Assembly: GCA_025062195.1 (NCBI GenBank)
Contig: JANXAS010000019.1
Span: forward strand, 1 to 58,812
Source of the DNA: Armatimonadota bacterium
GTDB lineage: Bacteria; Armatimonadota; Fervidibacteria; Fervidibacterales; Thermosaccharophagaceae
Direction: 5' to 3'
Length of the DNA stretch: 58,812 bases
The notes below the pieces were generated by a model that was not told where the DNA came from, did no database searches, and saw only the letters and a program-made list of their open reading frames with translations. The position numbers and the translations under genes are program-made. Positions 8,876 through 42,373 of this stretch are shown here, piece after piece; the first letter of the stretch is position 1; each line of letters begins with the position of its first letter.

Positions 8876-10138
8876 TCACCTGTTATGCCTTTCTGCTGGA
8901 AGGTGTCCTCCCGCCCACATGACACCCCTTCGCAGCAGAACGCCAATCTCTGGCGCTGAGAGAGCTTTCACATCATGCCCAAGGGTGCAGTGAAAGACAC
9001 GCCCATAACGATAACGGTGGACGAAAGCAACTGGATAGCTAAGCCCATCAACTTTTGAGCGCGCAACCGCAAGCACCTCAATTTGTGGCTCCCCAGAAAG
9101 GCATGTGTAAAGCTCATCGTCTGTCTCAAATGATTGCAAGCCCATCGTGACCGGATGGTTTGGATTAACTATCTCAACCTTAAATCTGCCTCTTGGGTCA
9201 TGTGGGCGAAGCTTCGGATCCCAAATTCGCCCGGCAAGTTGAACAAACTCTTCCCAATCCTGCCATGCACCACATGCAAAGTGAAGCACGACCAACCCTT
9301 TACCGCCACCGACAAATTGCTTTATGTTCTCACGGGCAAGCCAACCCGGTGATGTCGTCTCCCAATTCATGAAGTGCAAGATGATGACATCGTAACGATG
9401 CAATGCTTGCGAATCAAGCATGTGTGGGTCTTCAATGACACGAACTGAAATGCGCTTGTCAGCCTCAAGCAGCTTAACAAGTGCTGGTGTTGTCTCACGC
9501 CAGTTGTGTGCTGGATGGTCAACTCCGGTGACGATGAGGGCGTTCACTGTTTCTTTGGGTTTCGCCACAGCGCCCGGTGAGGGAAGCAACTTCCCTGTGC
9601 GCTTTTCCCATAAAACCCTGCGCCTGCTTAGGCGATGCTCACCGTGGCAATCAGTGCATACAAGCGTTTCCGGCTTTGTCCCGTATGATTTCTCAAACCA
9701 CCTCAGGATGACAGATTGAGCCGGGGCATCATGCCTTTTATGGCAGGTAGCACAGAAACTGTTTATAGCATCCTTTGCGAACATAACATCCGGTGGCGTC
9801 TTGTTAAATTCATCACCCCTATGAGCTTCTGATTTGCCATGACAGGACATGCAACCCACATTCGCCTTTGCGTGAATTAGCGATAGCTCCTCTTGAGCAT
9901 AGTTCAAGTGGCACACATAGCATGGTGCATTCACCTTCGGCAATTCCTCAACGCTCTTTTTAGCCTCTTCCAAGCGCGGTGCATCCGGCTTGACTTCCAG
10001 TGGTGGTAAACCCTTAGCAGCGCCAATATGATATCTCATAGTTACACCAATCAAAGCCCACACGGCTATAACATACACCGTTACGATTGCCGAAAGTTTC
10101 ACCGGCTGCAAAGCGTGAGGGTATTTCCATTGGCGCAC
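8876..10138 (-). CDS. Membrane-anchored tetraheme cytochrome c fused to a ThuA-like domain
   Basis: 420 residues with an unusual architecture. Residues 14-34 form a transmembrane anchor. Four haem c motifs follow: CYVCH (73-77), CMSCH (96-100), CATCH (129-133) and CTDCH (161-165), with extra histidines that could be distal ligands. Residues about 198-414 form a ThuA-like (trehalose-utilisation/glutamine amidotransferase-like) flavodoxin fold (ALIVTGVDHPAHNWRETT, YDVIILHFMNW, GKGLVVLHFACGAW, GRVFHCTLGHD). ThuA-type domains occur with sugar-oxidoreductase systems, so the fusion may tie periplasmic sugar chemistry to electron transfer. GTG 10138 is chosen: AGGTGG lies six bases before it, while the ATG two bases upstream is out of frame. 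Function is inferred. Confidence 0.85.
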   Translation of the reverse strand: MRQWKYPHALQPVKLSAIVTVYVIAVWALIGVTMRYHIGAAKGLPPLEVKPDAPRLEEAKKSVEELPKVNAPCYVCHLNYAQEELSLIHAKANVGCMSCHGKSEAHRGDEFNKTPPDVMFAKDAINSFCATCHKRHDAPAQSVILRWFEKSYGTKPETLVCTDCHGEHRLSRRRVLWEKRTGKLLPSPGAVAKPKETVNALIVTGVDHPAHNWRETTPALVKLLEADKRISVRVIEDPHMLDSQALHRYDVIILHFMNWETTSPGWLARENIKQFVGGGKGLVVLHFACGAWQDWEEFVQLAGRIWDPKLRPHDPRGRFKVEIVNPNHPVTMGLQSFETDDELYTCLSGEPQIEVLAVARSKVDGLSYPVAFVHRYRYGRVFHCTLGHDVKALSAPEIGVLLRRGVMWAGGHLPAERHNR

Positions 10139-10555: not shown

Positions 10556-12307
10556 TTACTCGTGCGAGGAAAGGCATCGGCGCAATGCTCTTGCAACAGC
10601 TACACATCCAATTGCAGTGGGAACTGCCCCAATTAAAAGCCACTTGAGCTGGGAAAGTAATAGCCCGCCTAAAGCTATCAATCCACCGTAGATGAGCATA
10701 ACTCCTCCAACCCATCCTAGCACCCAATACCATTCTATTGGTCTGGGCGGCAACGATGCCGCTTCAGACACAGTGCGCCACCAACCTGGTGGGCGAACTT
10801 TGCGATAGAATGAGACGAGCTTCTCCATAGGCTCTGGTTTCGTGAGCAATGTCACTGCCACCCAAGCAACTTGCACACAGACGATTATGATTATAAGCCG
10901 GTATGGAAAGCCGAGGTCGGTAATGAAGAAGTCAAACGGGGCTAACTTACACCAACCGAGTATGTAAATGATGCTGTTCACGATGAGAGCGGTTGCCATT
11001 GCGCTTATCTCGCTCCACGCGTTGATGCGCCACCAAAGCCAACGCAGCATTGAAACAAGACCGATGCCGGCATTCAATCCTGCAAGCAACATCCAAGCCG
11101 TGCTTATTTGCTGCGTAGCCAATGATGCGCCCACACCAAGTGCGAGTATGAATGCTGTAGCGAGCCGTCCAATTAAGACATAGTGCTTTTCGTCAGCGTC
11201 CGACTTTATGAACGGCTTATAAAAGTCGTTGACGAGATAGCTTGCAGCCCAGTTCATATGTGTGTCCATAGTGCTCATGAATGCGGCGAGCATTGCAGCA
11301 ACCATAATTCCGAGTGCGCCTGTTGGAAGGAGCTTTATCATCATTGCCGGATATGCACCTTCATCTCCCACTTCTTTTGGCATATTTGGCATGAGCAGCA
11401 ACGATGCGAGCGCAACAACTATCCACCACCAAGGTCTTAAAACATAGTGTGCAAATGAGAACCAAAGCACGGATAAGACCGCATTGCGCTCGTCCTTTGT
11501 GGCAAGCATGCGTTGCGCAATATAGCCCTCTCCATCCGGGCGCCCAACTGCCCACCATTGCACGAGAATGTATGTGAGGAAGGCAATCCAAAGATGGCGT
11601 TCTTCGCAGGATGGTAAAAACAGCAGGCGCTTTGCAAGCCCGGCATCCTTTAATTGACTCACTAAGTTAGCCCCACCACCAATTACCTCAAGTGAGGCAA
11701 ATGCCAACCATATTGCTCCTGTCATAGCGAGCGCAAATTGAAGGAAGTCAGTGAGCACAACACCCCACAAGCCAGCAGTGATAGTGTATGCGAAAGCTAC
11801 GGAGATTAAGATGGCAAGCGCCGTAATAGGCTCCCAGCCGAATGTTGTTCGGACAATCTTAACCATGGCATGTATTACCCAGCCCATCACAATTGAGTTT
11901 GCAATTAACGATGTGTAAAGCACCCTAAACCCGCGAAGAATATTGGCTGGTGTGCCACTGTATCTCATCGCTATGAACTCCAAATCAGTGAGTGCCCCGC
12001 TGCGCCTCCAAAGTGGCGCAAACAGAAATGTGCTAAGCATGTTGGCTATTGCCGCGTTCCACCAAAACCAATTCCCAACTATGCCTTGCTTTCTTATGAA
12101 GCCAGTGACTGCCAATGGCGTGTCAGAGGCGAATGTCGTTGCGACCATGCTTGTGCCAGCAAGCCACCAAGGCAATTCTCTGCCGGCTGCAAAATATTGT
12201 GCGATGCTCTGCGCAGCACGCCTTGCCAATGCGCCACCCACACCGAGCGCAAATGCAAAATATAGTCCCACGATGGCATAATCCCATAGTGCCATTTTCC
12301 CGTCCAT
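10556..12307 (-). CDS. Sodium:solute symporter family transporter
   Basis: About 583 residues with roughly 13 hydrophobic helices, matching the SSS/SSF (SLC5-like) family that imports sugars, vitamins or carboxylates with Na+. Recognisable segments are YFAAGRELPWWLAGTSM (helix 1-2 signature), ATTFASDTPLAVTGFIRKQG, and AYTITAGLWGVVLTDFLQF. ATG 12307 is preferred to the upstream TTG (12322) because GGGTGG lies five bases before it. The upstream neighbour on the same strand is an aldo/keto-reductase-like gene 155 bases away. That pairing suggests uptake of a sugar or its oxidation product, but the substrate cannot be named. Confidence 0.88.
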   Translation of the reverse strand: MDGKMALWDYAIVGLYFAFALGVGGALARRAAQSIAQYFAAGRELPWWLAGTSMVATTFASDTPLAVTGFIRKQGIVGNWFWWNAAIANMLSTFLFAPLWRRSGALTDLEFIAMRYSGTPANILRGFRVLYTSLIANSIVMGWVIHAMVKIVRTTFGWEPITALAILISVAFAYTITAGLWGVVLTDFLQFALAMTGAIWLAFASLEVIGGGANLVSQLKDAGLAKRLLFLPSCEERHLWIAFLTYILVQWWAVGRPDGEGYIAQRMLATKDERNAVLSVLWFSFAHYVLRPWWWIVVALASLLLMPNMPKEVGDEGAYPAMMIKLLPTGALGIMVAAMLAAFMSTMDTHMNWAASYLVNDFYKPFIKSDADEKHYVLIGRLATAFILALGVGASLATQQISTAWMLLAGLNAGIGLVSMLRWLWWRINAWSEISAMATALIVNSIIYILGWCKLAPFDFFITDLGFPYRLIIIIVCVQVAWVAVTLLTKPEPMEKLVSFYRKVRPPGWWRTVSEAASLPPRPIEWYWVLGWVGGVMLIYGGLIALGGLLLSQLKWLLIGAVPTAIGCVAVARALRRCLSSHE

Positions 12308-12350
12308 CCAAACCACCCTCAATCAATCGCAGTTACAGATGATTGCGTTA

Positions 12351-12462: not shown

Positions 12463-13596
12463 TTACACCCACTCCCACCTTCTGAGCCACTCATATTCTT
12501 GTGGCAGCTTAGCCCACATCCTTACAAGGGCACTTTCAAGCTCCGCCTTCTCTTGCGGTGGCAATTCATTCTTTGGGAGGTCAAGTTCCTTTCGTTCCTT
12601 AACAGCAAGAGCGACATTGTCCACCTGCTCAACCGAGATAAGCCCAGGAATGGGTGCTGTTATCACAGGGTTGCAGAGGATATAACGAATAGCTAACCTC
12701 GCTATGCGGTTGTCTTCCTCGTAGTGCGGGTTGCCGGGGGAGCCATCTCCTTTGAAGATAGTCGCGTCAGCAAACGGCTTGATGCCGAAGAAACCACAAT
12801 CACATTCGCGTATGGTATCAAAGAAGCTGCCCTTTGGGACCGCTTTTGTCATGGCTGTGTATGGTAGCACAACAACATCAATTTGGTCTCTAAATGTGCG
12901 CATCATGTATTCAGCCCAAGGACGATCGTGAGTTGAGATGCCACCCGCTCTAACCTTCCCTGACTTCTTAGCTATGTCAAGCGCTTTTGCAATCTCTTCA
13001 GACTCAGCTTCCGTATGTGGATAAACCCATTTGCCATCCGGACCTTGATGCCCATCTATGAGACATGTTATGCGCCACAAGTCAACATAGTCCAAGCCAG
13101 CTTGCTTCATCCCCTCATCAAGTGTTTTAAGGAGAGCTTTCGCCGTCCTATACTCTGGAGAGCGCGCTTCCTTCTCATACCATGAGCAACCAAGATACAT
13201 GCTCTCTCGCCGCCCTTTAAGAGCGCGCGCATACGCGATCACTTCATCTGTTGAACATGCGTCAATGTAGTTGATGCCTCTCTCAATGCATCTTGTAACT
13301 ACATTGTATCGGTTCTTTTGGAACTCAGGTCTGTCTATGTTGCCATACCAACCACCCATCGGTTCACCACCGATGATGAGATGCACACGCTTCCAGTGCC
13401 CACCCAAACATACAGCTGAGACCATCCAACCAGTTTTGCCACATCGCCTATACTCCATGTCTGGGTTGTAGTTAAGTATCTTTGATGCGCCTGCTTGCTC
13501 AACTGCTCCAGGTCGTGAACTGATCACGCTTAGCGATACACCTGCACCAACAGTTGCTTTGATAAATTGGCGGCGGTCAACGAGGTGCTCACCCAT
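12463..13596 (-). CDS. Tat-exported aldo/keto-reductase-like protein
   Basis: 377 residues. The N-terminus is a twin-arginine signal (DRRQFIKATVGAGVSLS, R8-R9), so export in folded form with cofactor is expected. The rest is an aldo/keto-reductase TIM barrel (RRCGKTGWMVSAVCLGG; GINYIDAC; KVRAGGISTHDRPW; VITAPIPGLISVEQVD). The usual catalytic tetrad looks incomplete: Asp is present in YIDAC, but the Tyr of the normal YG-x-x-E motif and the Lys of the following strand (here MYLGCSW) are not evident. It may therefore bind but not reduce the classic substrates, or use another mechanism. ATG 13596 follows GGGGTGA at six bases. Confidence 0.8.
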   Translation of the reverse strand: MGEHLVDRRQFIKATVGAGVSLSVISSRPGAVEQAGASKILNYNPDMEYRRCGKTGWMVSAVCLGGHWKRVHLIIGGEPMGGWYGNIDRPEFQKNRYNVVTRCIERGINYIDACSTDEVIAYARALKGRRESMYLGCSWYEKEARSPEYRTAKALLKTLDEGMKQAGLDYVDLWRITCLIDGHQGPDGKWVYPHTEAESEEIAKALDIAKKSGKVRAGGISTHDRPWAEYMMRTFRDQIDVVVLPYTAMTKAVPKGSFFDTIRECDCGFFGIKPFADATIFKGDGSPGNPHYEEDNRIARLAIRYILCNPVITAPIPGLISVEQVDNVALAVKERKELDLPKNELPPQEKAELESALVRMWAKLPQEYEWLRRWEWV

Positions 13597-14570: not shown

Positions 14571-14766
14571 CCAGTGGAATGGAGTAAAGCACCAACAAAC
14601 TTTGAAGTAAAGAGTGTTGCCAGTCGCTGATTCATGGTAGCATCTCCCTTTATGGGCAATGCTGTTAAAAAATTTGTGTGGGATTTGCTTTGTGCTCTTT
14701 CTACAAGAAGCCTTTGAGCGGGACAAACTTCATACGTTGGCAAAATCTGGTTTTGAGGTGATGGAC

Positions 14767-16380
14767 ATGAAATTGCAAAACAGGCGTCAGTTCTTAGTGT
14801 CAGCTGGTGATGCGTTGTTGTTTGGATTCCTCCTGCACAACCTTGGTAGTGGTGGCGAAGCACGCCGTTCGCTTAAGGAGGTGATTGGGAAGATGAGTTA
14901 TCAAGAGGGTCCGTTCTTTCCATCCTGGGAGTCGCTCACCAAGGGTTATGAATGTCCGCAATGGTTCCGTGATGCCAAGTTCGGGATATGGGCACATTGG
15001 AGTCCGCAACAAGTCCCAGAGCAAGGCGACTGGTATGCCCGGAACATGTATATCCAAGGTCATCGGCAATACAACTACCATGTGCAGCAATATGGGCATC
15101 CTTCAAAATTCGGCTACAAGGACATTTGTCGTTTGTGGACGCTTGAGAAGTGGGATCCTGGAGGGTTGATGGACTTGTTTGTTCGCGCTGGCGCAAAGTA
15201 TTTTGTTGCGCTCGCAAACCATCACTGCAACTTTGACTGTTGGGACTCAACATACCACGAGTGGAATTCTGTGCGCGTCGGACCAAAGATGGATGTCGTT
15301 GGCATTTGGGCAAAGGTGGCTCGTGAGCGTGGCTTGCGCTTCGGTGCATCTGTGCACACAGCGAGAGCATGGTGGTGGTTTGAAGTTGCTCATGGCAGCG
15401 ATAAAGAAGGTCCACTTGCTGGCATCCCATATGATGGCAACCTGACGAAAGAGGATGGCAAAGGGCAATGGTGGGATGGGCTTGACCCGCAAAAGCTTTA
15501 CTGTCGCACGCACAAGCCCGGTGAGCCGCCAGATGATGAGTATCTGCTCAACTTCTACATGCGTATAAGGGACTTGATAGACAAGTATCGTTTGGACTTG
15601 CTTTACTTTGATGATAGCATTTTACCCTTGAACAATATCTCACCAGAGATTGGGCTTCGCGTTGCTGCTCACTTTTATAACTCAAGCATACTATGGCATG
15701 GCAGGAACGAAGCGGTCATGACGACAAAAGGCTTGCCACTGGAGTTGCGTAAAGCTCTCGTTTGGGATATTGAGCGTGGTCGTGCCGAAAGGATTGAGCC
15801 ATATCCATGGCAGATTGATACAAGCATTGGCGATTGGCACTACCGAAGGAATGACCGCTACAAGACAGCGGGACAAATCGTCCACACACTCGTTGATGTT
15901 GTCAGCAAGAACGGCAACATGCTCCTTAATGTGCCGGGCAAAGGTGATGGGACGATTGATGAAGAAGTAATGCAAGCACTTGAGAGCATAGGCAAGTGGA
16001 TGCAAATTAATGGTGAGGCAATCTATGGCACACGCCCTTGGCTTGACTTTGGCGAGGGACCACAATACAGGTTGGTGAAAGACATTGGTGAGGGAACTTT
16101 CACAGCGAAGGACTTTAGATTCACAGTCAAGGGTAAGACGCTATATGCCATAGCACTCGGTTGGGCAGAGGACGGCAAGTGGCTAATTCGTTCATTGGCA
16201 CGCATCCCGAACGGCAACCGAATTGAGCATGTGGAATTGCTTGGGCACAAAGGCAAGTTGAATTGGACACAGACTGAAGAGGGCTTACTCGTTGAAGCGC
16301 CACAGCAAAAGCCATGCGAGCATGCATATGTGCTCAAGATTGAGGGGGAGGGTTTAAAGCCAGCCACAGCTAAGGCATGA
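14767..16380 (+). CDS. Exported alpha-L-fucosidase, glycoside hydrolase family 29
   Basis: About 537 residues. The N-terminus NRRQFLVSAGDALLFGFLL is a twin-arginine-type signal. The catalytic (beta/alpha)8 domain has the family's landmarks: KFGIWAHWSPQQVP, FVRAGAKYFVALANHHCNFD, and LLYFDDSILPLN, whose first Asp is at the position of the GH29 nucleophile; later NGNMLLNVPGKGDGTID, the highly conserved end of the barrel. A short beta-type C-terminal domain follows (residues about 440-535). ATG 14767 is chosen because GAGGTG lies six bases upstream; ATG 14761 directly abuts that site. The gene is bracketed with the penicillin-acylase homologue by repeats A and B. Confidence 0.9.
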   Translation: MKLQNRRQFLVSAGDALLFGFLLHNLGSGGEARRSLKEVIGKMSYQEGPFFPSWESLTKGYECPQWFRDAKFGIWAHWSPQQVPEQGDWYARNMYIQGHRQYNYHVQQYGHPSKFGYKDICRLWTLEKWDPGGLMDLFVRAGAKYFVALANHHCNFDCWDSTYHEWNSVRVGPKMDVVGIWAKVARERGLRFGASVHTARAWWWFEVAHGSDKEGPLAGIPYDGNLTKEDGKGQWWDGLDPQKLYCRTHKPGEPPDDEYLLNFYMRIRDLIDKYRLDLLYFDDSILPLNNISPEIGLRVAAHFYNSSILWHGRNEAVMTTKGLPLELRKALVWDIERGRAERIEPYPWQIDTSIGDWHYRRNDRYKTAGQIVHTLVDVVSKNGNMLLNVPGKGDGTIDEEVMQALESIGKWMQINGEAIYGTRPWLDFGEGPQYRLVKDIGEGTFTAKDFRFTVKGKTLYAIALGWAEDGKWLIRSLARIPNGNRIEHVELLGHKGKLNWTQTEEGLLVEAPQQKPCEHAYVLKIEGEGLKPATAKA

Positions 16381-19690: not shown

Positions 19691-20332
19691 TCAATCATGG
19701 CATTGGGCACATAACTGCTTTGATGGTTCTTTGAGCAAGCCTTTAATGTTAGCAGAATGGATGGAGTGGCACATTGTGCATTGTTCTATAGGCTGTTTTG
19801 GATGGTGATGCTTCAATTCAAACTCAAGTTCGCTATGACATTTATCGCATGCTGCAGGGATTGGCGGTTCACCAAGGGCTGCATTACCATACTGCACATC
19901 AGTTTTGTGACATGATGCACAACCATACTGCCCCTTCACTGTTTGCGGATGATAACGCAACTCTTTCCATCCCTCTGGGAATTTCTTTGTGCTACCGTCT
20001 TTGACATAAACCGACAAAGTAGCATCGCCAACCTTAATTTTGTTTAGTCCAAGTTGGAGCTTAATCCGGGCTACAAGGACTGGCAGCTTAAAACTTTTAT
20101 CCCAATGTTTTTCGGAGTTGTTGACGAACAATTTGGGCAGATTGAACTGCATAGGCACATTATCCTGCTCAAGCACGCAAATGAGATTCACTTCGCGCTC
20201 CAATATGATGGTGCGATCCTGTGGGAAGATAAATTTGAACTTCGCTTGTTTTTTCTCGCTGAACGCAGCAATGAATCCACCGCAAAGAATTAACATGCCC
20301 ACTATAACCATACGATAGCGCACTGCTGGCAC
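19691..20332 (-). CDS. Exported tetraheme cytochrome c (doubled CXXCH type)
   Basis: 213 residues. A signal peptide or anchor is at residues 5-25 (RYRMVIVGMLILCGGFIAAFS). A beta-rich region (30-125) precedes four haem c sites: CASCH (138-142), CDKCH (162-166), CTMCH (185-189) and CAQCH (208-212). The pattern of CxxCH followed by a histidine-rich stretch (LKHHHPKQP) and CTMCHSIHS is that of doubled-CXXCH proteins. The protein stops one residue after the last haem motif, an abrupt end for this family. GTG 20332 is the first start, with AGGTG of the previous gene's end nine bases upstream; GTG 20323 or ATG 20311 are alternatives. It begins six bases after the barrel gene, so the two are translationally linked. 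Confidence 0.85.
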   Translation of the reverse strand: MPAVRYRMVIVGMLILCGGFIAAFSEKKQAKFKFIFPQDRTIILEREVNLICVLEQDNVPMQFNLPKLFVNNSEKHWDKSFKLPVLVARIKLQLGLNKIKVGDATLSVYVKDGSTKKFPEGWKELRYHPQTVKGQYGCASCHKTDVQYGNAALGEPPIPAACDKCHSELEFELKHHHPKQPIEQCTMCHSIHSANIKGLLKEPSKQLCAQCHD

Positions 20333-20338
20333 ATTAAA

Positions 20339-21304
20339 TCACACCTTGCCATATTTTCTTGTATAGCTTGCGTTCTCGCTCACCTCATCTGAAAACCTTG
20401 GATACATGCCTACAATTACCGCATCCGTTCTCTTTATCTTTCCAAATGCATATCTGAATGCATCTTCAACCTGCCTCCTTGACCAACACTTTCTTCCAGC
20501 TGCCAGTATCTTGAACCCAAGACACGGCTTATTCACACTTCTCATCACTGCTGTCATCTCTTCTGGGTCGGATTCAAAGAATGGCTCATCAACTGGAACT
20601 TTGCCGAGTTGCTTTAACATCTCTTCCCTTGGACGAGTGACATAGTAGAAGCAACACATGAAAAAGTCATTCTCCCAACCTTCATCCATAATGCGTTTAA
20701 TTACCTCCGGATTGTGAGCTGACACCCCTGCAAGCGCCCCATGGTCATGAACCTTTTTCACAAAGTCATGCACCTGCTGCGCTTTACCAGCCCTGAAAAG
20801 TGAGTCAGTTACGCCACCATGATGGGCTATGGCTATCGGATTTAGCTTCATTACTTCTTTCAATGAAACATCCGTCGGACGCTCCGCATGCAAGCATATA
20901 AGCTGTATCTGACAGCCTCGTTCCCTGGCAATCCGAATTGCCTTAACTGTCTTATCGGTGTAATCAAACTGCCATGTGTTAATGCCTTGGCGCTCGCAGT
21001 GAATTAGAAACTCGGCAGTTCTTTCTGCTGTGAACCATTCTCGCATGTGCACGGACATGTGCCATGTTGAGTGTGAGTGCCCGCCTATTGGGTTGTAACC
21101 TGCTATAAGCCTTGTGACCTTGTAATCGCCGAGATTGATTACTGGGAGTTGTTCCTTTGCTGGCTCCTTAGACCAATGTTTGATCTCCTCATCTTCACCG
21201 ATAGCTGCTGTCGCAGCGATAGTTATAGCGCCAACTGAGGTCAAGAAAGCCCTCCTTGAAGAAGCACCCTTAAAGCCAGCACATTCATTGAATGGTTGCT
21301 TCAT
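20339..21304 (-). CDS. Tat-exported TIM-barrel protein, aldo/keto-reductase-like
   Basis: 321 residues. A twin-arginine signal (SSRRAFLTSVGAITIAATAA, R17-R18) precedes a barrel distantly like aldo/keto reductases (GDYKVTRLIAGYNPIGG; ERQGINTWQFDYTD; GALAGVSAHNPEVIKRIMDE; VNKPCLGFKILAAG). The classic Asp-Tyr-Lys-His tetrad is not conserved, so enzymatic reduction of aldehydes is doubtful. Proteins of this type are frequent in bacteria with many exported sugar oxidoreductases. ATG 21304 follows GAGGTGA at seven bases. The secreted tetraheme gene starts six bases after its stop, suggesting a two-protein unit with redox function. Confidence 0.75.
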   Translation of the reverse strand: MKQPFNECAGFKGASSRRAFLTSVGAITIAATAAIGEDEEIKHWSKEPAKEQLPVINLGDYKVTRLIAGYNPIGGHSHSTWHMSVHMREWFTAERTAEFLIHCERQGINTWQFDYTDKTVKAIRIARERGCQIQLICLHAERPTDVSLKEVMKLNPIAIAHHGGVTDSLFRAGKAQQVHDFVKKVHDHGALAGVSAHNPEVIKRIMDEGWENDFFMCCFYYVTRPREEMLKQLGKVPVDEPFFESDPEEMTAVMRSVNKPCLGFKILAAGRKCWSRRQVEDAFRYAFGKIKRTDAVIVGMYPRFSDEVSENASYTRKYGKV

Positions 21305-41416: not shown

Positions 41417-42373
41417 ATGAACAGGCGTGACTTCATCCATGCCGCCATTGGCGCTATCTCTTCAACGCTCGGTGCAGATGTTATCTATCGTGCATCTGCG
41501 CAACAAAACGATGATGCGAAGGTGCCAAAGCGCGTCTTGGGCAAGACCGGCATTGAAGTTTCAATTATTGGGCTGAGCGGGCTTGCGTTCAATAGACTTG
41601 AGCAAGCTGCGGCGAACGAGCTTGTCAGAGAAGCAATAGATGCGGGCATCAACTTCGTTGATGTTGCACCAGCATATGGAAATGCCGAAGAAGTGCTCGG
41701 AGCAGCGCTTGATGGTCACCGCCATAAAGTCTTCTTGGCGTGCAAGACGCAGCGCCGAACGAAGGAAGATGCATGGCAGGAATTGCAGCGTTCGCTCAAG
41801 CGTCTCCGCACGGACTACTTTGACCTCTACCAGCTGCATGTCCTGACCAAAATGGAAGAGCTTGAGGTAGCTCTAAGCAAAGGCGGCGCAATTGAAACGC
41901 TTATTGAGGCGAGGGAGAAAGGCTTGGTGAAGTTCCTCGGCTTTTCAGCCCACTCGCTCAAAGCAGCGCTTGAGGCGATGCGCAGGTTTGAATTTGATAC
42001 GGTGATGTTCCCGATAAACTTTGTCGCATGGCACCGCGAGAATTTCGGTCCGCAGGTGGTTGAGCTGGCGCAAAAGAAAGGGATGGGGTGCATTGCCATT
42101 AAGCCGATGGTGCGCTCCGCGCTTGCACCGTGGATGAAGCGCCCGCATCCGAGGCTCTGGTATGTGCCGACTGACGATCCTGAGGAGGCATCAATGGCGC
42201 TGCGCTGGGCGCTATCACAAGGTGTTACAGTGGCAATGCCACCAGCTGATGAGAAGCTCGTTAGACTCGCAATCAAAATAGCGCGCTCTTATAAGCCAAT
42301 CACAGACGAAGAGATTGAAATGCTTCATAAGCGCACGGAGTCTTGCATACCACTGTTCAAATCAGACCTGTAA
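41417..42373 (+). CDS. Tat-exported aldo/keto reductase
   Basis: 318 residues. Twin-arginine signal NRRDFIHAAIGAISSTLGAD, then a complete aldo/keto-reductase barrel: NFVDVAPAYGNAEEVLGAAL (Asp, Tyr), KVFLACKTQRR (Lys) and DLYQLHVLTK (His), so unlike the two other barrel proteins in this window its catalytic tetrad is intact. NADPH or another cofactor would have to be loaded before export. The start has a near-perfect anti-ribosomal site AAGGAGGTGA eight bases before ATG 41417, predicting strong translation. Divergent from the ADP-ribosylglycohydrolase-like gene. Confidence 0.88.
   Translation: MNRRDFIHAAIGAISSTLGADVIYRASAQQNDDAKVPKRVLGKTGIEVSIIGLSGLAFNRLEQAAANELVREAIDAGINFVDVAPAYGNAEEVLGAALDGHRHKVFLACKTQRRTKEDAWQELQRSLKRLRTDYFDLYQLHVLTKMEELEVALSKGGAIETLIEAREKGLVKFLGFSAHSLKAALEAMRRFEFDTVMFPINFVAWHRENFGPQVVELAQKKGMGCIAIKPMVRSALAPWMKRPHPRLWYVPTDDPEEASMALRWALSQGVTVAMPPADEKLVRLAIKIARSYKPITDEEIEMLHKRTESCIPLFKSDL

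Follow-up and report, generated by a model that had tools for sequence, protein, structure and literature searches.

The extracytoplasmic oxidation of sugars to keto forms is known from Caulobacter, where a PF06439 protein is encoded beside the membrane-bound LacABC system. This protein is important for lactose use, as supported by genetic evidence, and was proposed as a putative 3'-ketolactose hydrolase (PMC9007349). BT2157, likewise a PF06439 protein, is a 3-ketotrehalose hydrolase (PMC9007349), and one PF06439 protein was described as a xanthanase (PMC5673643, PMC9007349); hence, a PF06439 domain is no proof of 3-keto chemistry. In addition, PF06439 overlaps with CBM66 annotations (PMC5673643). 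In a FAD glucoside 3-dehydrogenase related to the LacABC enzyme, a monohaem cytochrome c serves as the electron acceptor (PMC9915066).

For ThuA proteins, no established biochemical activity was found in the literature searched. Planctomycetota commonly possess proteins in which ThuA is joined to a GSDH-like propeller and a monohaem cytochrome c. Eight of the 11 large planctomycete ThuA proteins sampled here carried one haem site and one carried five, while both planctomycete ThuA-cytochrome proteins that were scanned against NCBIfam matched PVC-type heme-binding models. A planctomycete protein of 2237 aa (L272:357-7070) possesses two ThuA stretches and five CXXCH motifs. An aldo/keto reductase (AKR) acting extracytoplasmically together with a cytochrome is not known to us.

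Here we report the analysis of a 58,812-nt stretch of DNA from an uncultured Armatimonadota bacterium (from its first to its last nucleotide referred to as the window), belonging to a genome of 3.4 Mb that is 97% complete. The window encodes a fusion of a tetraheme cytochrome c with a ThuA domain, and an exported AKR-like protein whose relatives are regularly paired with such tetrahemes.

The tetraheme-ThuA fusion protein

The fusion gene is a single, intact open frame with a GTG start, which is preceded by a GGTAGGTGG-like ribosome site (Table 1). Searches of Rfam around the genes gave no match, and scans for promoters and terminators yielded nothing above chance. The initial annotation, which named no strand, had described one polypeptide with a membrane anchor, four CXXCH sites and a ThuA-like domain, and this architecture was confirmed by hydropathy, motif count and Pfam. 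The hydropathy peak is located at about residues 15-33 and the corresponding AlphaFold2 helix spans residues 12-39, in a model of the whole fusion that reached a pLDDT of 54.5 with an alignment lacking ThuA homologues. Because its haems are of the c-type, the haem and ThuA domains probably face the outside of the cytoplasm, anchored by this helix. The helix presumably stays uncleaved, unlike in several stand-alone tetrahemes which, judged by eye from their N-termini, look like lipoproteins. As the linker lacks a signal peptide, the ThuA part would be exported only through being fused.

Table 1. Features of the window in the vicinity of the fusion gene
Feature	Position	Strand	Basis or remark
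Fusion protein, 420 aa: membrane anchor, tetraheme cytochrome c and ThuA	8876..10138	-	ORF, Pfam, motif count
N-terminal membrane helix, residues 15-34, no lipobox	10037..10096	-	hydropathy, AlphaFold2
Tetraheme domain, residues 70-185	9584..9931	-	CXXCH at 73, 96, 129, 161
Interdomain linker, about 12 residues, no signal peptide	9548..9583	-	sequence
ThuA domain PF06283, residues 200-409	8912..9541	-	Pfam
Sodium:solute symporter (PF00474), between AKR-like gene and fusion	10556..12322	-	Pfam
Tat-signal AKR-like protein (MGEHLVDRRQFIK...)	12463..13596	-	tblastn, Pfam, AlphaFold2, Foldseek
Alpha-L-fucosidase (GH29)-like gene with signal sequence, divergent	14659..16380	+	by eye; carbohydrate context only, membership not claimed

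In the haem half, Cytochrom_c3_2 and Paired_CXXCH scored above their Pfam cut-offs, and four CXXCH motifs occurred in none of 20,000 composition-preserving shuffles of the fusion protein. When GTDB species genomes were searched with the complete fusion protein as query, stand-alone secreted tetrahemes emerged as the closest relatives of this half, with about 40-52% identity and mostly from Planctomycetota; the family set comprises 83 distinct copies. The fusion shares the marks of this family, which are four CXXCH, the motif CTDCHGEH and the invariant residues H89, H106 and H168. By their conservation, these three histidines are candidates for three of possibly four distal haem ligands, and a possible fourth ligand at position 136 is present in about half of the family. 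Neither the tetraheme nor the AKR-like protein obtained an NCBIfam name over cut-off, and the tested family members scored far under the cut-off in full-length NCBIfam cytochrome families. The best NCBIfam matches of the haem domain were to DmsE- and NrfH-type cytochromes, all of them far below cut-off. The haem half belongs to a distinct tetraheme family without a name.

The ThuA half matched PF06283 with an E-value of 2.6e-31 and a score of 110 bits, the cut-off being 33.4, covering profile positions 2-209 of 209, and the solved ThuA-like protein 4e5v matched the fusion with an E-value of 8.7e-9. The residues H19, H94, E150 and H196 of the ThuA domain are invariant in 12 sequences including that of the window, so that the domain is not degenerate. 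Relatives of it in viral contigs were not detected. Its closest relative (46%) belongs to a protein of the make-up ThuA-ThuA-LamG-PQQ dehydrogenase from another member of the phylum. Elsewhere in the genome of the window, two ThuA domains are located in one frame of 642 aa (G000:C112:17008-18594; L002, L006). The view of the initial annotation that ThuA proteins are usually single-domain is countered by the propeller-cytochrome fusions of Planctomycetota, the PQQ dehydrogenase fusion and this double-ThuA frame. The joining of ThuA to a c-type haem is of an already known kind; what is new in the window is the tetraheme half and its partner.

An exported AKR-like protein paired with the tetraheme

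The gene directly before the tetrahemes of the relatives encodes a Tat-signal AKR-fold protein. Most of these proteins are 42-59% identical to the AKR-like protein of the window (tblastn), and a few are more distant. In the window, the AKR-like gene is on the same strand, two genes upstream of the fusion and not immediately adjacent to it; the symporter gene and the 417-nt gap between the two weigh against assuming a single operon.

At least 1.5 kb of upstream sequence was available for 76 of the 83 distinct tetrahemes, which served as the denominator for the pairing. In 66 of these 76 distinct loci, an AKR gene lay on the same strand no more than 2.5 kb upstream of the tetraheme; in 55 of them it was within 300 nt. 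As a control, 49 loci from weaker multihaem matches were used, 48 of which had a gene with at least three CXXCH; an upstream AKR was found in none of the 49. Across 291 genomes of the phylum, strong matches (E <1e-30 for the tetraheme and E <1e-40 for the AKR) were obtained in 11 genomes for the tetraheme, in 12 for the AKR and in 11 for both (p ~5e-19, or ~1e-12 by genus, the relatedness of genomes being allowed for through this genus collapse only).

The tetraheme-ThuA fusion itself was found in one of the 291 genomes, and all other loci that were inspected lacked it. Separate ThuA genes adjoin the AKR and tetraheme genes at five loci, before them in L144, L145 and L153 and after them in L196 and L224; the latter two show the order AKR-tetraheme-ThuA, in agreement with the window fusion. 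No paper on the AKR-tetraheme pair was found among the freely accessible papers that were searched. The AKR and the tetraheme form a widespread, apparently undescribed two-gene module, with the window fusion as a rare fused version; that the fusion belongs to this module is very probable.

At L036, the locus of the AKR most closely related to that of the window, the cluster has the order Gfo/Idh/MocA, AKR, tetraheme and xylose-isomerase-like TIM barrel. In the AKR tree, the window protein nests with high support among sequences that are partly planctomycete, a placement that suggests horizontal transfer.

The pairing extends to multiple copies. Some planctomycete-type genomes possess up to nine tetraheme paralogues (G460 and G298; loci L201-L206 and L213-L222). 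Several of them have their own AKR each, which suggests substrate-specific copies. At another locus (L030:215-3417), a 4Fe-4S dicluster protein is encoded between two tetrahemes, and an AKR-like gene follows; this arrangement is a possible onward electron path.

Two further Tat-signal AKR-like genes occur in the window. One (20339-21304, minus strand) is directly followed by the gene of a four-haem cytochrome (19691-20332), but this pair (19691-21304, minus strand), considered as a possible second copy of the module, was not counted as evidence. Similarity between its AKR-like protein and the first AKR was detected over no more than 45 residues. Moreover, this AKR-like family, although frequent in the phylum, usually does not lie beside haem genes; apart from the window, a haem neighbour was found in a single sampled genome (L246). 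The other gene (41417-42373, plus strand) has no cytochrome neighbour.

The assignment of the partner to the AKR fold is based on its match to PF00248 (E 8.4e-17) and on an AlphaFold2 model with a confident barrel (pLDDT 88.6), for which AKR14A1/YghZ gave the best Foldseek matches. Of the Asp-Tyr-Lys-His tetrad, the Asp is kept, while Tyr, Lys and His were each found in 0 of 70 AKR-like proteins. Instead, the family has the invariant set H67, D112, E118, R175, H223 and K273. With the catalytic Tyr, Lys and His absent, hydride transfer by the standard AKR mechanism is not expected. From the constant pairing with a cytochrome we nevertheless infer that the AKR-like protein is a redox enzyme.

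Carbohydrate links and possible function of the module

Tetraheme::PF06439 (3-keto-disaccharide hydrolase) fusions were found at ten loci and in both domain orders. They fall into separate AKR clades, that is, into several separate lineages, and at other loci a separate PF06439 gene adjoins the tetraheme. Planctomycetota are rich in PF06439, Gfo/Idh/MocA and xylose-isomerase-like genes, so that neighbourhood alone is weak and the fusions are the stronger evidence. A GMC-type (LacA) flavoprotein (PF05199) was not detected in the genome of the window, while the Caulobacter control was positive. We consider it probable that the AKR-tetraheme module works on sugars, and regard it as about evenly balanced whether the fusion serves an extracytoplasmic sugar-redox module as its electron-carrier subunit. 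The initial annotation had already proposed a sugar-related redox function outside the cytoplasm; this part gained from the PF06439 fusions, the ThuA neighbours and the PQQ-fused ThuA relative, whereas the part that made ThuA the redox partner of the haems found no support, the conserved partner being the exported AKR-like protein.

That the module is a 3-keto-sugar system running in the oxidative direction is a tentative proposal, somewhat short of an even chance. Following it, the AKR-fold protein would be exported folded through the Tat system with a bound cofactor, and would oxidise a sugar or glycoside; the product would most likely be a 3-keto form. The membrane-anchored tetraheme domain would take up the electrons and feed them into the respiratory chain. 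The ThuA domain on the same anchor would act next on the keto-sugar, as isomerase or hydrolase, taking the role that the PF06439 domain has in the other fused versions, and the symporter encoded between the AKR and the fusion may import the product. The genome encodes TatC as well as a cytochrome c assembly protein.

The electrons could also flow in the reverse direction, with the tetraheme supplying them for the reduction of a substrate and without a link to sugar oxidation. The sequence gives no direction, and DmsE and NrfH, the best if far sub-threshold NCBIfam matches, belong to reductive pathways; yet oxidation accords better with the recurrent fusions to sugar-pathway domains and with the joining of the nearest ThuA to a PQQ dehydrogenase, and we regard reduction as unlikely. 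Equally improbable is that ThuA and PF06439 are carbohydrate-binding modules only, which hold the tetraheme near a polymer while the AKR-tetraheme pair performs all of the chemistry. The two domains are interchangeable in these fusions and the overlap with CBM66 (PMC5673643) would agree with binding, but the window protein retains every one of the catalytic-looking ThuA residues, and there are PF06439 members with hydrolase roles supported by genetics or biochemistry (PMC9007349).

Still less probable is a ThuA domain that is itself a redox-active sugar enzyme and exchanges electrons directly with haem 4. The covalent link, in which no more than about 12 residues separate the two domains, would be compatible with such an exchange, and flavodoxin-like folds were among the weak structural matches of the poor fusion model. 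Against it, the partner conserved across 66 of the 76 loci is the AKR and not ThuA, which is elsewhere a separate gene or replaced by PF06439; to our knowledge, no haem or flavin site is known in ThuA proteins. The reading of the fusion as a simple ThuA redox enzyme was dropped after the AKR pairing had emerged. Finally, a single-lineage accident or an assembly error without a function of its own, which the rarity of the fusion could indicate, is very unlikely in view of one intact frame without an internal signal peptide, conserved residues in both halves, a partner gene nearby and parallel PF06439 fusions in other lineages.

Returning to the proposed oxidative module, the AKR-like protein and the tetraheme may even constitute a new class of cytochrome-linked sugar dehydrogenase, though we would sooner bet against it than for it. 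In such an enzyme, an AKR barrel rebuilt around the six invariant residues H67, D112, E118, R175, H223 and K273 would feed a dedicated four-haem carrier that has repeatedly been fused to keto-sugar enzymes. If it is a sugar dehydrogenase, it would add a third cytochrome-linked route of glycoside oxidation in Planctomycetota and Armatimonadota, besides the LacABC flavoenzymes and the PQQ enzymes. The fusions would then tie the poorly understood ThuA and PF06439 domains to a defined redox step, making the function of ThuA directly testable.

Comparison with described systems

The best, albeit weak, NCBIfam match relates the haem domain of the window to DmsE/MtrA-type multihaem cytochromes. The DmsE-type decaheme has ten haems, whereas the window protein has four and scored 34 bits against a cut-off of 192, which places it outside that family.

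With the PVC-type heme-binding CxxCH proteins (TIGR02604 and TIGR02603; with ThuA, GSDH/DUF7133 and HEAT), the fusion has in common an exported ThuA that is covalently joined to a c-type haem. These proteins mostly combine one class-I haem with a large, dehydrogenase-like beta-propeller domain, in contrast to the four class-III-like haems, the membrane anchor and the lack of a propeller in the window fusion, in which neither the Piru_Ver_Nterm propeller nor the TIGR02603 haem domain was matched at E-values of up to 1.

The partner shares its barrel with AKR14A1 (YghZ, 4aub/4ast), which is among its best sequence matches and is its best structure match. It differs in being Tat-exported and paired with a cytochrome, in the loss of the catalytic Tyr, Lys and His, and in the new invariant residues H67, E118, R175, H223 and K273.

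With regard to the proposed function, the closest system is LacABC with its PF06439 hydrolase in Caulobacter, in which membrane-linked periplasmic sugar oxidation is followed by a PF06439 keto-sugar hydrolase (PMC9007349). In the window, the candidate for the oxidoreductase is instead an AKR-fold protein, and the electron carrier has four haems.
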